Part shown: positions 7,464-25,265 of the stretch, one piece after another
Layout: every line of letters begins with the position of its first letter
Position numbering within the stretch: the stretch's first letter is position 1
Source: Phytophthora sp. 'mugwort'
Taxonomy: Eukaryota > Oomycota > Peronosporomycetes > Peronosporales > Peronosporaceae
NCBI GenBank assembly: GCA_033558025.1
Contig: JAUCEF010000005.1
Coordinates: forward strand, 3,224,001 to 3,288,000
DNA length: 64,000 nucleotides
Reading direction: 5' to 3'
Position numbers and translations under genes: made by a program
The notes under the pieces: generated by a model
What the model was told of the DNA's origin: nothing
The model's database searches: none
What the model saw: the letters and a program-made list of their open reading frames with translations, nothing else

Positions 7464-7653
7464 GGGTTGCCGCAGCGCCCAGCAGGCTCCTTGTGCGTGC
7501 TATGCAGCTACTCAACAAAATAAATATCACAAACATGACGAAAACATGAAGCAAACATGTTAGTCAAGTGCACGACGGAAATGGCGGAACTACCAGCATT
7601 GCGTCACTGCCTGGGCGCATCAGCAGTGTAGCAGTGCCCAGCGGCCCAGCAGC

Positions 7654-9723
7654 ATGGCGTCAATACCGGACCGCCTCAGCCGTATGACGGCAGTGGCCGG
7701 CCCAAGCAGTCACACCAGCACTCGCTCGGCCTGGATTGACAGCGGCAGCATGCACGCACAGCTCTACAACCGCAATAGCATGCAAGTCCTGTTGAGTGGC
7801 AGCAGCTCTCAAATCACCACCACTGATATCTCGCAATGGCAGAGCAGCCGCGTCACACTCGGTGCTGGCATGAACCCCGACACGGTTCGCAGCATCAACT
7901 CGCCAACTCCGAACACAGAAGCGTACATGGCGTCGCTGAACATGCAGAGTGGGCTTCATGTCGTCGCCCTGGCTAAAGTCTCCAAGGCCAACCAAGACAA
8001 TGCCGAGTATGGATTATTTTTTCTGTTCTTCACGGTTGCATTTCGAAGCCGTTTGCACAAGTGGACATCAGATTTGCTGGCGTCTCGCGGTCAGGCCAAG
8101 CTCACCGAAAGTGAGTTCAATGCTTACTGTGGCCTCGAAATTGCAATGAGTATTTGTCCGCTGAACGAGATAGCAGAATGCTGGTCTGACAGTCGTTTTC
8201 TTGGTCAGGCCGCATTCATTGAGACCATGCCAAGAACGCGGTTCCAGAACATACGAGCACCGCTGCAATATCACGCGCCTGATGACCCGAATCTGGATAA
8301 GCTGCGCGATCCGCTATGGCACAGCAGAACGCTTCTAGCTCACTTTCAGAAGCGATTCGCAGAGTTTGCTGTCCCTATCGGTGTGAGCAGTATCGATGAG
8401 ATGACAACGTGGACGAAGGCACGCTCAAGATCTCGAACCTGCATACCGTCCAAGTCTGACAAGTACGGCGTGCGGTTCTACGCTGTCGTAAGCTGAGATT
8501 CACTCTACGTACACTCAGTTTAGGATAATTGCTCAGGCAGTACACAGACTTCAGCACCCGCTCAACGGTACACCACGCGATTCCCATTGCTTCGCACCCC
8601 TCTCTTCAACACCCTGACTCGCGACGGTATCGTGGTGAGTGCGAAATCAGCAACAGCACTAGGTTGGCGATGGTAGGTCCCAATCGAAGATACTACTCTC
8701 ACCTAGCAGCTACAGACTCATGGTGTCCGGCGACTTTTACACACGACACACTTTCGCAAGAGCTATGCTCGCGTTGAGCGTGGTGCGTGGGACCACGCAG
8801 CTGCAGTCGATCCAGAAGCTGGATGGAAGAAAAAGAGGCAGACCATGCAAAGCTCAAAAGGCCTACCTAAGAATCGACAGACCGCGTACCAGCCGATCCT
8901 CACGTTCGCAGACACCGAGCAGACTACATCATCCGCAAGGCTCGCAAGGTCGAGATATTCTACTCGAACGACCTGCACGTAACTTCATCATCATTGCAGA
9001 CACTCCATGGCTCTTCCGATGAGGCCGTGGCAGCAAGCCACGGCCTCTTCCCAACTTAACGCTGGACTGACGAACGTGTGCTGCACCGAAAGATATTCAT
9101 GGCACCAACTGTGGTAGCAGTGTACAGCCGCTTCATGAACGGCGTCGATCGTGTCGACCAGCTCCGCTCGACCAATCCAACTAGGCGTCGCGAAACGCGG
9201 CTCAATATGACGTTGCTCACATGGCTGCTAGATATGGCTACAATCAATGCTTTTGCGTTGCTGAAAAAGACAACCGGATTAGGGCCGACGCTGCGTGAGT
9301 TCAAACGACGGATTGCAGACCGCCTGACGCGCAAGAGAAGCGCTAAGGCGGCAGCAGATGCGCCGTAAGAAGAAGCGCCAGCGTGAAACATTGGAGGAAG
9401 TGGTCGGAGCCGATACGTCTGTGCATATTATCACTCCCAACTAAACAAAGCACAGCAACGACAAGCTGAAGTGCTACTTATGCAGCCTCAGAGGATTAGA
9501 CAAGAAATCAAGATACGGCTGCACAAAATATGAGCGTGAGTTCCAAGTTGAATGTTTTAGCGCCTTCCACTATCAGGACGTCTTCAAAGCGCGCTCCGAA
9601 CTTCGCGAAGCACTGGACGCGATATGCCGAGCGACGACGGACGATCCTGTAGTGTTCACGCGCAAGCGAGCAAATAAGTCTATCACGTGCGTCGAAGCGT
9701 TGACATTGTCTACAGCTACATAA
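7654..9723 (+). pseudogene. piggyBac-type transposase, decayed
   Basis: A plus-strand frame starting at 7654 runs to 8496. It carries piggyBac-like segments: 'FLGQAAFIETMPRTRFQNI', then 'DPLWHSRTLLAHF', 'SIDEM' and 'PSKSDKYGVRFYAV'. Coding similarity resumes at about 8940 ('VEIFYSNDLHV'), crosses an in-frame TAA at about 9056-9058, and continues with 'YSRFMNGVDRVDQLRS', the hallmark MxGVDxxDQ region. It ends with a Cys-rich tail ('KCYLCSLRG...YGCTKYE...VECFSAFHY') and a TAA at 9721-9723. The middle (about 8500-8940) is out of frame and poorly preserved. The domain order matches DDE_Tnp_1_7 proteins, including the C-terminal zinc-binding region. The TTAA-flanked termini of a piggyBac element were not found, so element boundaries are open. 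Confidence 0.8.
9021..9047. repeat. Perfect 11-bp hairpin with 5-nt loop inside the piggyBac remnant
   Basis: gaggccgtggc at 9021-9031, loop agcaa, then gccacggcctc at 9037-9047. The arms are perfect reverse complements. It lies within transposase coding sequence, just before the in-frame TAA. Confidence 0.85.
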
Positions 9724-19033: not shown

Positions 19034-19601
19034 CTCGACGAAAGAAGGCGAGCTTTACCACCCCACTTAGAGATTTTGAAGTTGTACGGCTTGCACAGTG
19101 ATAGATATGCCATGCAATTTTGCGTGAAGCCATCTGAGTCGGAAGATATTGATGTCACATGAGTAAGTCCACCATAGATGTGGTTCCACTACTATACTTT
19201 GAATCATAACGTTACTATTATTTTCTCGAAGGTAGTTTAAGCGGAGGCTAATCCCTTCATTACTTGCGTTCTACATCGACATAGGCCACCGTCACATCCC
19301 AGTACACACACGTATGCAGCATCACCGGAGCTATTTGATTACGGAAGCTGCGTCGACAATAAAGTCCGATGCAAGTGCAAATGCCGACTTCTTCCGCCTC
19401 CACGGCCACCACCTGCAGGTCCAACGCCCCGACCGAAATGACGATGTGGGGGGGGGTGGCCGTGCTGCTCCGCACCTCCGTGGTGTGCGGCCGTGCGCGC
19501 CAGAAACCGTTCCCATGAAAGTTTTATCTCACGTAAAAGCTGCACAGATTGCTCTTTTGCACGGCCCAAAGCCTACATGAGCATTTAGCACAACATTGGT
19601 G
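19034..19601. other. Convergent intergenic region, no gene recognised
   Basis: This lies between the 3' ends of the ELMO gene and the CHAT/NB-ARC gene. A run of nine G (about 19447) and a GC-rich block at 19380-19520 support open frames on both strands. A minus-strand frame ending at 19260 ('TCVYWDVTVAYVDVERK') is mildly protein-like, but I cannot connect it to any exon. Confidence 0.45.
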
Positions 19602-22600
19602 TCAGGACGTTAATTTAAGACAAGTTTTCACAATAAGGTTGCGTACCGCCTCGGACGTGCTGGTAATCTGGATGTAGGCTTCTGGCATCGACTGCTGAGT
19701 ACTCTCCTTTTTGCCATCATCTCGGCCTTTGCTCCACTTGATTAACGTCTGCGGCCACGGCCCAATGTAGCGCAGCTGTGCGCAGGCAATGGCCTCGATC
19801 TTTTTCAAGTGTATACCACGCTCACCCAACAATTTGCCCGGGAAATTAAACTTGCGTGAAACAAGCGCCTCAGCGTCAACGATGTCGTACACGTTGACTC
19901 GAGCGAAAAGGTGACCCGAGGATACAGAACCCTCAACGCTATCACCACTTAGCACCGCACGCTTAAAGCTGCTCGTCTCACCACTCATGCTGCTGTTACT
20001 TTCATCTTGCCCCATTTCATCTTGCTCCAGGGCCGAAAGTCCAAGTTTTTTCATCTGCCGCCCTCTTTCTTCTACTGTTTTACCCTCATCTTCATTTCCC
20101 TGTAGTCGTAAGCACTTTCCAATTTGTTCTGGCAAGGCGGACAAGTCCAAGTAAATCAGTACGGGATAAGTCATAACTGTCTACAAAGGTCTAATTCACC
20201 GTACCGATACAAAATCCTACGTCGCGAGTGTCCGGAAAAAGCTGCTGACGGATATCTTGTGCTTTCTTGTAGGCTGTAATCGCCTCCGCATAACGTTTCT
20301 AGCGAGCACAACGATTTTAAGTGTGAGCATTACAAAATCTGCCCTCAACAATAAAAAGTAGTGTTGTTACCTGATCTCGATAAACTCGCGCGAGATTAAT
20401 GAAGATACGAGCAGCGCGAGGGCTAATGTCATTGAAATAGCGATCAGTAATCTGCAGTGCCTCCTTGATGTTTTCTTCTGCTCCGCGCCAATCTTTCTGA
20501 AATCAGCAAAAAAAATATAGATCACCATAGTAAAAGGCTTAGACAAAATGCGGAAAAGAACAGTCAATCCGACTCATGACGTACAGTCAGACGCTTGAAA
20601 TTGCCCATGTTGTTGAGCGTAGCAGCTGTCTCGAAGCTTGCATTGCCAAGTCTGCTCCGACGAATCCGTAGTGCTCGCTCATAAAGACGTCCAATTTCAG
20701 CCCGCTGCGCAGCTAACTCCTCCTCACTATTAACAATTAGCAGCAGTTAGCACCAGCGACGATTGTACCATTGCAATCTCTCTTACCTTAATTGCTGCGC
20801 TTCAAGTTGGTTGGACAGATACAGTGCTAAATTGTTCAGCGACTGTGCAACTTGTGGATGGTTTTCACCGAGTGTTATCTCGCGAATCTTGAGCGATTGA
20901 CGATACATGCCAGCAATATCGGGTCGAGGCTCTTCCTCCACATTTGCATTTGGGGTATCTTTGCTCACACCCACCATAGCGCTTTCTTGGCTAGGGCTCG
21001 TCAGGCTTTCGCTACTGGTGCTGGATCTACTTGGGCTAGGACTTGAGCTAGAGTGAGCACCTCGATGAGAGCTACCGCCTCTCCGCGCTCCGCTTTTCCC
21101 TCCTCTCAGATGCCGATCTCTTGGTTCTCGGGCATCTTCACGCTGTGCTGCCGACGGTGATCGACGCTTTCCAGCGGTTGGGTAATTCTTGTAGAAGTTG
21201 GCCAAGTTGTTCAGACTTGTTGCATATTCCGGGTGGTTCTTACTCAGCACTCGACTGCGCATCTGAAGTGCTCCTTTCAACAAGCGCTCCGAGTGCTGCA
21301 GCAGCCAGACGTTATGCGCTAAGTATCCCCATCGAGTACTGAGGCAAATACCAAACTGGTTCAACACTTCAGCTACTTGCGGGTGTTCCGACCAACCTAG
21401 AACCTCGCGCTGCAATCGTAGCGATTCGAGGTAGTGATACTCTCCTGCCACCCAGTCAGTGACGTCACAACATGCGTAGCCTAGGTCTGTTAATAGTAAA
21501 GCTTCTAACGCGATGAGCTCACGGATACCCACGCAAGTGCAGCGGTCATGTGCCGCGGCTGCAGCAACGGGTGCTTGCGGCTCCTCGAAAGATGGCAATT
21601 TGTCCAGCAGCGATAGCTCACGATCGAACTTTGCCTCTTCCACATCCCATAGCAGCGTTGCAGGATCGTTTTCACGATTACCGCAGGTACAATGCAGTGA
21701 ACGTGTCTCTCTTGAGAGTTGCAGGCATGAAGATACCACTTGAATACGTCGCCGGGGCTCAACGCGTGCTCGAAAAATAAACCGACAGCGCACCACCAAG
21801 TTGCTGTACAGAAGAGCATCCACGATAGACGAGTTATTGAGCGCAGCAGCTCGTGTAGATCTTCGACCACCTCCAATTCCACTGCTGCTGCTACTACTAT
21901 TGCTTGTACTTCCAGCAAAACTACTGCTCTGGCGTTCAATAATTGGTTTGGGCGTTGTCCCAGCTTCCGCGAAAAATGATGGTACACTCCTTGACCTCAT
22001 CGTACCGGCAGCACTGGAGACTCCGCCAAGCTGATCACTTACAAGGTCTTGCTGGACACGGCGATTACTCTCACGAACTTGCTCAATACTCTGCTGTGTC
22101 AGCTCATGAGCCAACCGCATAGCTGATTCAATATTAGCGCGTTCCTTGTCGAAAAGCGCTAATGTGCCATCAAAACGGTAGGCGTGTGATGCCTTGGCTA
22201 CGATCATGCAGTAGTAGCGCACAAAACGCCTCTTCCATGTGAGAAGTAGCTCTTTGCCCAGCGGATTACTTGTGGGAAGAGCACCCATGGATGCCGTCAC
22301 GAACGAGGACGGAGCAGCACTTGAACTCGAAGTCGGTGCTGGATCAGTAAAACTCTCGTCCCCCATACGACCAGCTTCTTCCTCTGCAAAGAGTTGCACG
22401 AGATTGTGCATGCGATAACGATTTGTTTTCGAGTCGAATTCCACAAGCGACCACTGGTGAAGAAGCTCAAGAGCTACACTTGCCGACGTAACACTTACTT
22501 CACGAGCTTGAACCTCTTCGCTACTCTCCAGATCAAGCAGGTCGTAGCTGTCATTCGTCATGGCGCCGTCGTTGTCGAAACCAAACCCATCCATATTCGA

Positions 22601-25265
22601 AAGTTGAGACCCAAGACTGCGAACGGAGGAAGCGTCATCATCTCGATTGCGACTTCGGTTGCTCTTAGCATACGCATCAGCAGGAAAGTATGTCGAGCAT
22701 GAAGAATTCGTTGTCCCACCCCCTGAGCCGCTTCCGGACGTAGACATCAGAGAATAGCTACTACTTCCCGCCAACTTCCCAACAGCATTCTGCTCCGTCA
22801 AAACACTTGAAAGAACTGCTTCAGCAGCTTCAATCTCGAAGCTTCCTCGAAAAAATCCGAATGCCATAAAGGCTAACCGCAATGGCTCGTCTAAATGGCA
22901 AAAAGATGAGCGGATGCATCTGTCTACACATTCTTTATGTCCCACTTGGTTGAGTTCTCTGATAGTCTCGAACCTGTGCTCATCACGCTACAGGACATCA
23001 CGACGAAACGATACAAAACACAAAATTATGAGTATTTCGCTTTGTATATATGAAGAGGAGACAACCAGATCTTCTTTACCTCCAAGTACTCGATCATACG
23101 CTCTGGTGTAACAGTCATTCGAGCGTTAGCAAGCGCACGACCAACAACGCGGATAGCAAGTGGGAGGCATCCACAGATCCTTGCCAAGCGCTCAGCTAGA
23201 TTAGTGGAGCAACCAGGAGCGACAAGACATAGTAACTCCGTCTGCGCCATACACACCACGCAAACCATCGAGTTAGTCAATGAGTGGCTTGGCAATAACG
23301 CAAACATGCGCTTCAGTATCTTACCGCCGTGTGCAACGGGAGCTCCGAGATTGAAAGTGAATAGGGAGTAACGCTGGGAATGTGCATGTTGCGGCGAGAG
23401 GCAAGCAGCAATTTCAGGTTCGGGGCGACGGAAATAAGCTGATGCAACAGTTCTTCACCCTTGTTTTCATCCTCATCCAGAAGCTCCTCAACCTTGTCCA
23501 GCACCAATAAACAGTTCTTGGTCCTACATGTACAAAAAGTGTCAGCTAGAGACGGCAACCAACAAAGGCAGGATGCAGTAACTCGAATACGTCTCGTGTA
23601 GAGCTCACCCTAGCTCTGCGAACACTTCTTCGTCCGTGTCCGCAGCAGGCATACCAATGCTCTGTGCGATGGCATAACGCACAGTTGAGAGTTTTTGGCC
23701 TTCCAGATCCACGTAAAACACACCATCAGGAAACATTCGGCGACTGTGCACAAAGTGCGCGACCGAGATAATGAGAGAGCTCTTTCCGATCCCTGGTGCA
23801 CCTAAGCACGCTGTCACGGCATTCTCGCGCAGCGACTTCACCATAAGATACGTTTCAGTATTGCGGCCGATAAATTGGCCATGCATGGACGGTATGTTGG
23901 ACGGATATCGTGGTGTATAGTCGCGTAGCTTTCCGTTCGGGATATCACCGAAAAGAACAACATCGTGCGCGGACGTACCGAGCAGCAGGAATTTGCTGGA
24001 TTCGTCATGTGGAAATGCCAACACATGACCCTTGCAACAGCACTGAGCCGCACTGTGTTGCGAGTGGCGTGATCCATCACGCATCCACGTGCACGTGGGT
24101 TCGTGGAGGTGCCTGTAGAGCAAATCAATACACAGAACAATTAGTTTGGTGCAGACACAACAACTATTAACGGCCTACAAACATGTTCAGAAGCACACAT
24201 GAAAGGAAAAACTTACGCGCAGCAGCAAGCAGCCCTTTTCTGGGTAGGAAGAGCACGCACCGCACCCTTCGCGATCTCAAATGCCGTCGATACTGTATGT
24301 CCATGAAATAGTGACAGATAAAAATGCTTTGCAAACATGGTAGCCGACGCGTCCACTACGAGCGAGTCCGAATGTACTGCCACGACATGAGGGATCCCTG
24401 CGTTCAAGAATACTGATGCAACCTTCTGACTATGACAGGCATTGACGAACACAAGCTTCACACTGCCATCCAGCGGCCTCGGACCGACCATGGCCGTTTC
24501 GGTTGTCTTCATCTCGACCGGGGCCGCTCCTGGCACCTGTTGCTGTCTTCTATCACCTGAAAACATCAACTGCCGCAGTGCATCCGGCGTAATCAGATGC
24601 GTGCACCCTGCTCCATCTTCGAAGCAAAGAGCGGCGCGTTGCCCCAGTCCGTGACCTGAGAAGTGCAGCACCGTGCACTTCCAGGCCGTCATGAGGCTGC
24701 GCAGAATATCCGCCGTAGCGATATCAAACCGCACGTGGATGGCTTTATGTTGCACGTCCGTAAGCAGCGAGTTGCTGATCTCCCGTCGCTCCGCCTCCAG
24801 GTCCAGCTTCTCCATGGGATAGATGCGATGGCGACTGTCCTTGATCACGAGCGGCGCCGCGTGCAGCACCACGAGGTCCAGCGCGTTATCATCTCGAGGC
24901 AGCCAGACATGGTTAAGTTGCTGGGAAGTTGCTGTCGTTGAAGTTGTCGTGGCTGACGTTGAAATCGTTGCTGATGTAGACGCATCACCCGACGACCCAA
25001 TCAGGGCCTCGATGGCCTGCGAGATCCGCACGCGGTCCCCGAAGGCCGCAATGCCCAGGTCATCGCGCAGCGCGTTGCGCGTGAGCTCTGGCAGGATGGC
25101 GCCCGAGATCTTGTTGGCGGCGAAGAGATCCACGTGCTCTATGAAGCCCTGTGCGTGCAGCCAGAAGCCCACATCGGCGCAGGACCAGGCGCTCCACGGC
25201 CCGGCCGGCACGGCGCCTTCCATTTTGAAGTGAAAAGTGAGGTAGCTGAAGGCGTACCTATACAT
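19602..25265 (-). CDS. SAM-CHAT-NB-ARC-TPR(-KH) protein, NLR/apoptosome-like, nine exons
   Basis: Exons in transcript order: 25265-24217, 24112-23609, 23523-23325, 23241-23080, 22987-20787, 20726-20585, 20496-20371, 20298-20221 (or -20200) and 20099-19602. All junctions keep phase, giving about 1652 residues. Domains: SAM (about 22-90); CHAT caspase-like domain with 'HFSGHG' (His205) and 'NACHSQ' (Cys277); NB-ARC with 'FIGRNTET', P-loop 'GAPGIGKSS' (about 454-462), Walker B 'LLVLD' (523-527), 'GCLPLA' (608-613) and an MHD-like 'MHN' (831-833). Kinesin-light-chain-like TPRs follow ('HPEYATSLNNLANFY', 'HPQVAQSLNNLALYL'), then a KH-like end ('FNFPGKLLGERGIHLKKIE'). The family logic is a TPR sensor, a nucleotide switch and a protease effector. 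Translation may start at Met15 (25223). The last intron's donor is ambiguous, so the KH exon is the least certain part. Confidence 0.82.

Follow-up and report, generated by a model that had tools for sequence, protein, structure and literature searches.

This report concerns a single gene on the minus strand of a 64,000-nucleotide stretch of the Phytophthora sp. 'mugwort' genome (assembly GCA_033558025.1, contig JAUCEF010000005.1, positions 3,224,001 to 3,288,000; hereafter the window, whose own numbering is used throughout). In one chain, the gene combines a SAM domain, a CHAT caspase-like domain with an intact His-Cys dyad, a STAND NTPase, an array of tetratricopeptide repeats (TPRs), and a KH domain. 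We put the chances at about even that the product is a conserved oomycete signalling protease in which an NLR-type STAND switch keeps the CHAT domain inactive. A preliminary description, made from the sequence alone, had proposed that, in an oomycete, a caspase-fold protease domain with an intact dyad is fused to TPRs and an NLR-type switch. This proposal is borne out: SAM, CHAT, STAND NTPase and TPRs lie in one spliced minus-strand chain, as seen both in profile matches on a 1653-residue model and in orthologues that align end to end.

A protein search returned 76 matches among 7986 scored candidates. We class proteins P0001–P0039 as orthologues or close second copies; of these 39, 38 are assigned to oomycetes and none elsewhere, the genera being Phytophthora, Nothophytophthora, Globisporangium, Pythium, Lagenidium, Saprolegnia, Achlya, Thraustotheca and Aphanomyces. 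Several of these 39 rows are alternative models of one species, and multiple rows per species are counted without sorting into copies. Downy mildews and Albugo gave no match by name in this search, where clustering at 90% identity may hide members; we do not read this as loss. Clearly divergent second copies occur in Pythium insidiosum (P0019, P0024) and Aphanomyces stellatus (P0030, P0035). The two P. insidiosum copies have close locus tags and lie on contigs of identical length (624114), which suggests a local duplication. P0035 is 2728 residues long and carries C-terminal protein kinase domains, through either a real fusion or an annotation merge.

The gene model is predicted to be a single frame of ten exons, running from the ATG at 25223 to a stop at 19339 and encoding 1716 residues:

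19339..25223, minus strand: SAM-CHAT-STAND-TPR-KH gene, complete coding region (spliced model and orthologue agreement)
25223-24217, 24112-23609, 23523-23325, 23241-23080, 22987-20787, minus strand: exons 1–5
20726-20585, 20496-20371, 20298-20205, 20128-19647, 19572-19339, minus strand: exons 6–10

The nine introns, of 60–104 bases, all have GT-AG borders, and retention of any of introns 1–8 brings in an in-frame stop. The Met of ATG 25223 is the start of five (P0001, P0002, P0004, P0005, P0012) of the 14 orthologue rows compared, while another, P0018, has a longer start that is unrelated to the window gene. The upstream ATG at 25265, from which the preliminary description began, adds 14 residues that have no counterpart in the rows compared. 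The end given there, 19602, came from reading into intron 9. This intron has a GTACGC donor at 19646 and an acceptor before 19572, after which the frame enters a tenth exon and reaches 19339. Seven GTA/GTG donors were tried near the end of exon 9, and only those at 19646 (1716 residues) and 19631 (1721 residues) keep a long frame into exon 10. The former was picked because P. infestans PITG_03457 (P0004) reads alike across the joint (TSEAALERAKEQSVQLLRE, and TSEAALGRAKEQSVQLLRE in the window model). With the tenth exon included, the KH domain is complete. The earlier claim of one gene with nine exons is therefore kept for the gene and amended to ten for the exons.

That two or three adjacent genes have been misread as one is extremely improbable. 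Annotation lengths do vary in some species, and the window model was derived from genomic sequence alone; however, the P. pseudosyringae and P. infestans annotations match end to end at 90%, and the same domain order recurs in Saprolegnia and Achlya. The alignments of P0001 and P0002 run from residue 1 to 1681 and 1684, respectively, at 90% identity, so that independent annotations likewise show one gene. On the strength of these end-to-end orthologues, a fused-gene artefact was rejected.

A Pfam scan of the 1653-residue model (25223 to 19602; E up to 1; best 25 of 27 families considered), together with motif inspection and the orthologue alignment, gives the following features:

25002..25190, minus strand: SAM domain, residues 12–74 (Pfam SAM_1, 48.3 bits, cut-off 23)
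24243..24884, minus strand: CHAT caspase-like domain, residues 114–327 (Pfam, 34.1 bits, cut-off 24)
24651..24653, minus strand: codon of the predicted catalytic His191, in LHFSGHG (H in 37/39 orthologue rows, gaps in P0035 and P0039)
24435..24437, minus strand: codon of the predicted catalytic Cys263, in VNACHS (C in 39/39 rows)
24034..24227, minus strand: Cys/His cluster CCC.H.H...C..H..H....CCC, residues 333–362, a putative metal site, split by intron 1 (24216-24113)
22940..23880, minus strand: STAND NTPase region, residues 414–640, including introns 2–4 (NACHT, 28.7 bits; AfsR structure 8k60, 54.0 bits)
23776..23802, minus strand: Walker A, GAPGIGKSS, K446 (K in 39/39 rows)
23484..23510, minus strand: Walker B, LLVLDKVEE, D513 (D in 39/39 rows)
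22406..22408, minus strand: MHD-like motif (MHN), His818 (H in 37/39 rows, two gaps)
21533..21691, minus strand: second Cys motif, CxC..CxC, C1057, C1059, C1107 and C1109 (C in 32–33/39 rows, the rest gaps)
20034..21469, minus strand: kinesin-light-chain-type TPR array, about residues 1131–1510, exons 5–9
19495..19883, minus strand: KH domain, about residues 1561–1665, exons 9–10, with GxxG at 19815-19826

The protease domain is recognised both in the protein and in a profile scan of the genome, where CHAT (PF12770) scores 37.6 bits at the window gene. Its His and Cys lie in GHG and AC contexts, respectively; a caspase-like fold is found in the predicted structure, and the model places the dyad residues after neighbouring strands. 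The pair first reported as His205/Cys277 is thus intact, and is renumbered His191/Cys263 from ATG 25223. Loss of the dyad from all orthologues, which would have spoken against the proposal, is not what the alignment gives: the dyad is kept.

The hallmarks of a STAND/NLR switch—a P-loop, a Walker B motif, and an MHD-like motif in the winged helix—are all recognisable in the chain. NACHT exceeds its cut-off (28.7 versus 26.7 bits), while NB-ARC (PF00931) falls just below (22.7 versus 23.5) and nSTAND1 marginally so (27.0 versus 27.1); in the Achlya orthologue, nSTAND1 passes (33.4 versus 27.1) and NACHT fails (16.5). Since NACHT passes in the window protein and nSTAND1 instead in Achlya, the STAND subclass is ambiguous, and 'NB-ARC' is a class label only. 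Of the 'complete NB-ARC switch' first described, the switch motifs stand and the family name does not.

C-terminally, superstructure-forming repeats are present (TPR_12, 105.1 bits), followed by a KH domain whose membership is carried by the orthologues: KH_1 reaches 28.2 bits in Achlya (cut-off 21.5) and KH-I_KHDC4-BBP 31.1 bits in Pythium oligandrum (cut-off 30), and the glycines of the GxxG loop are kept in 37/39 rows, with two gaps. A profile built from 14 orthologues was also compared with solved structures (best 60 of 98 matches considered). Among the matches listed, AfsR covers the NTPase-to-winged-helix part (54.0 bits), SAVED-CHAT the CHAT domain (47.8 bits), kinesin light chain the TPRs, and several SAM structures the SAM domain, the predicted fold of which resembles the SAMs of Shank, PHC and SARM1. 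An apoptosome-like, Apaf-1-type organisation was also suggested at first; in the strict sense it does not hold, there being no CARD or WD40 among the best 25 of 27 families.

Protein-level identities to Phytophthora were computed from 16 given rows, several of them models of one species, of which 8–16 were used per domain after rows covering <80% of that domain were dropped; the medians are 87% for SAM, 94% for CHAT, 99% for the NTPase, 91% for the winged-helix part, 85.5% for the middle region, 90.5% for the TPRs and 86% for KH. To the S. parasitica protein (P0025), the corresponding values are 53% (SAM), 58% (CHAT), 59% (NTPase), 46% (winged-helix part), 43% (TPR) and 34% (KH). Individual rows range from 87 to 94% over the TPR region (10 Phytophthora rows) and from 90 to 96% over CHAT (16 rows). 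The TPR arm therefore changes somewhat faster than CHAT and the NTPase, and is not hypervariable.

These figures are relevant to a second explanation, in which the protein acts in defence or allorecognition, like NLRs of fungi: upon non-self recognition, CHAT would cleave a gasdermin-like pore-former and kill the cell. Some fungal CHAT-protease NLRs adjoin gasdermin genes, and a Podospora anserina gasdermin is activated by a TPR-CHAT protease, as summarised in PMC10197012 and PMC12881547. The window protein has the same core parts, and conservation is higher in its CHAT and NTPase than in SAM, the middle region, the TPR arm or KH. Nonetheless, the TPR arm is highly similar across the 10 Phytophthora rows, orthologues occur throughout the oomycetes, and the flanking frames scanned are without a pore-former match. 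We regard the defence explanation as doubtful, though deserving of attention. The preliminary description suggested a cell-death or anti-invader sensor whose target, for example a pore-former, is encoded elsewhere in the genome. A fast-evolving anti-invader receptor fits poorly with orthologues from Phytophthora to Saprolegnia and with TPR identities only slightly below those of CHAT, and a neighbouring pore-former was not encountered in the ten flanking frames scanned.

The flanking scan comprised ten frames, namely nine of the 25 frames of ≥200 residues plus one shorter frame; short exons, and frames from about 41 kb on, lie outside it. Matches were obtained to an IS4-type transposase, SerRS, ELMO/CED-12 with PH, PIG-N, a PI3/PI4 kinase and BOP1 (in two pieces), three of the ten frames had no family match, and no pore-forming family was matched in any of the ten. 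A genome-wide profile search for gasdermin (PF04598) also gave zero matches, but its controls were equally silent, making it uninformative. The transposase frame (DDE_Tnp_1_7, 77.7 bits) lies at 7564-8496 on the plus strand of the window.

Further CHAT genes exist in the same genome. Across its 86 Mb, the CHAT profile scan finds four places over cut-off (one of 14 control genomes is also positive), and the His and Cys motifs are kept in all four genes. Besides the window gene there are three, a small set in which CHAT-STAND is joined to eukaryotic signalling domains (FHA, SH2) or to TPRs:

L005:4090-8271, plus strand: CHAT-NACHT-TPR frame, without SAM (domain profiles)
L006:5018-7909, minus strand: FHA-CHAT frame; NACHT matches weakly (23.9 versus 26.7)
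L007:2625-5838, minus strand: CHAT frame; AAA and NACHT match weakly, and the adjoining frame carries SH2

An Achlya protein named SH2 domain-containing (P0087) has the SH2 and CHAT pairing of L007 within one protein, and a similar tail. Equivalent genome scans with NB-ARC and NACHT found zero and five places, respectively, none of the latter inside the window; both are silent at the window gene, presumably because introns split the domain. Three other NACHT matches over cut-off lie in long open frames away from the CHAT places (C1:2696909, C5:82439, C5:5748014), and are probably other NLR-like genes of this genome.

The company that CHAT keeps in this genome is relevant to a third explanation, that of a housekeeping regulator of cell division, development or RNA metabolism, comparable to separase or metazoan TTC28, in which CHAT cleavage would serve a normal cellular step. 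Conservation and presence through the oomycetes fit this, as do the eukaryotic signalling partners (SAM and KH here, FHA and SH2 in the sister genes); TTC28, a human TPR-CHAT homologue, has been linked to cytokinesis, as summarised in PMC12314368. No separase family is among the best 25 of 27 Pfam families, a scan that included no dedicated separase search. A STAND switch with an MHD-like motif is, however, typical of inducible sensors rather than of constitutive enzymes, and we consider the housekeeping explanation unlikely.

The evolutionary position of the gene was examined with a set of 156 sequences (the window model, the three paralogues and 152 proteins), the wider protein search having contributed from the best 120 of 219 matches. 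Seventy-five sequences entered the tree; 24 were excluded by name (near-duplicates, lesser models, fragments) and 57 by coverage, length or a missing match. The tree contains long branches, and its groups were defined after it had been seen. In it, the 17 oomycete SAM-CHAT rows are monophyletic (100/99), and their sister is the metagenome protein P0078 (96/85); the L005, L006 and L007 genes fall in separate clades.

Between CHAT and the NTPase lies the Cys/His cluster, each of whose 11 Cys/His is kept in 35–36 of 39 orthologue rows, the rest being gaps. Over the 156 sequences, the pattern CCC.H.H matches 36/39 orthologue rows, the window protein, P0082 and P0088; a looser pattern also matches P0062, P0065 (a transcript of the foraminifer Ammonia), P0066 and P0070. 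In all six of these non-orthologues, a similar stretch occupies the same place, ahead of PH..S.KFLLL. The cluster is absent from the three window-genome paralogues and P0050, and P0078 is without it; on the tree, the cluster label requires three changes. The idea that the cluster is confined to oomycete orthologues was thus wrong. A clade of oomycete rows, P0078 and the six cluster-bearing proteins has a log-likelihood only 1.16 lower and is not rejected by the approximately unbiased (AU) test (p-AU 0.40), so all of these may belong to one old protist CHAT-STAND branch, of which the cluster is possibly a metal-binding module. The cluster and the second Cys motif may each bind metal.

A single SAM-CHAT clade can be rejected when P0050, P0052 and P0082 are included (191.7 log units, p-AU 9.6e-71; three changes of the SAM label), while one with P0082 and P0088 only, without P0050 and P0052, is not (10.1 units, p 0.25). 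SAM and CHAT therefore seem to have been joined at least twice, and not surely three times; SAM beside CHAT in P0050 and P0052 appears to be of separate origin.

Comparison with known systems places the window protein among several partial relatives. AfsR-type STAND-TPR structures (PDB 8k60, 8jke) provide the best sequence match from NTPase to winged helix among the solved structures listed; AfsR itself, a bacterial transcription factor, carries a SARP domain and is not known to have a protease. The closest solved fold for CHAT among the matches listed is SAVED-CHAT of type III CRISPR (PDB 8tl0), solved as an activated filament, with matching His and Cys motifs. There, a SAVED sensor operates in a prokaryotic CRISPR context; here, the partners are STAND, TPR and KH. 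The six cluster-bearing protist proteins share CHAT, the Cys/His cluster, PH..S.KFLLL and then the NTPase, with P0082 also carrying SAM before CHAT; unlike the window protein, none has TPR or KH among its precomputed Pfam domains. Craspase is not known to contain a STAND switch, SAM or KH. Its TPR-CHAT likewise unites the dyad with TPRs, and its protease is under RNA control, the RNA being read by a separate guide-RNA partner, gRAMP (summarised in PMC9729208).

Protease-NLR fusions with CHAT are already known in fungi (PMC10197012, PMC12881547, PMC9815663, as summarised there). These CHAT-NLR and CHAT-gasdermin units resemble the window protein in having an N-terminal CHAT, an NLR switch and superstructure-forming repeats, and differ in that the latter has SAM before CHAT, the Cys/His cluster between CHAT and NTPase, and a terminal KH; nor did any of the flanking frames scanned match gasdermin. 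The nearest biological model is provided by the pairs of CHAT-NLR and gasdermin in fungi, from which the window gene departs in lacking an adjacent pore-former match and in its oomycete-wide conservation.

From these parts we infer a path of nucleotide gating, oligomerisation, proteolysis and a downstream response, possibly with an RNA trigger. At rest, an ADP-bound NTPase, the winged-helix module and the TPR arm would keep the chain closed. Activation would then involve (i) contact of a ligand with the TPR-KH arm, opening the switch, (ii) exchange for ATP and assembly into a ring or wheel, (iii) polymerisation of the N-terminal SAM domains, and (iv) adoption of an active His-Cys geometry by the clustered CHAT domains, which would cut one or a few of the cell's own substrates. 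The outcome could be a stress, developmental or death response; in view of the KH domain, RNA or a complex of RNA and protein is a candidate ligand. RNA-switched CHAT proteases (Craspase) and the activated CHAT filament (8tl0) make a STAND-gated protease plausible. In its most specific form, the proposal would be a eukaryotic caspase-like protease gated by RNA within a single chain: KH would read RNA (viral, damaged or misprocessed), STAND-TPR would assemble, and SAM-CHAT would cut a death or stress substrate, as a one-polypeptide counterpart of Craspase. We give this form a slim chance.

Several observations weigh against a STAND-gated signalling protease. KH, at 34%, is the least conserved of the domains compared with S. 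parasitica, and in the window's exon 9 alone its profile reaches 17.9 against a cut-off of 30. The structure models cover SAM-CHAT, the winged-helix part and the TPRs, with the NTPase exons outside them, and the winged-helix part, modelled apart from CHAT, has a low mean confidence (67.5). CHAT or STAND proteins can act as scaffolds without activity. This last point raises the explanation that CHAT is a pseudoprotease serving as scaffold only, consistent with the second Aphanomyces stellatus copy, P0035, in which His is missing from the alignment (GHG broken), and with a CHAT activity that is predicted only. Yet His is kept in 73/75 and Cys in 74/75 of the diverse tree rows (His: gap in P0035, T in P0071; Cys: R in P0071), and the structure model predicts the two residues to be placed after neighbouring strands; a pure scaffold is accordingly improbable. 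On balance, we prefer a conserved signalling or stress protease to a diversifying immune receptor; an RNA-linked trigger is its most interesting option.

Beyond the preliminary description, which named KH only among the profiles for a search, the analysis adds the tenth exon, the Cys/His cluster and the three sister CHAT-STAND genes. Among the titles and abstract openings listed from open-licence literature, none describes the addition of SAM, the Cys/His cluster and KH or the conservation across oomycetes, and a search of that literature by the gene name PITG_03457 found nothing. If the protein is active, oomycetes would have a caspase-like signalling protease of the NLR type that is both built in and conserved. 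A gene with predicted catalytic residues, and relatives in one genome (SAM-KH, TPR, FHA and SH2 versions), would offer a handle on regulated cell death or RNA sensing in oomycetes.

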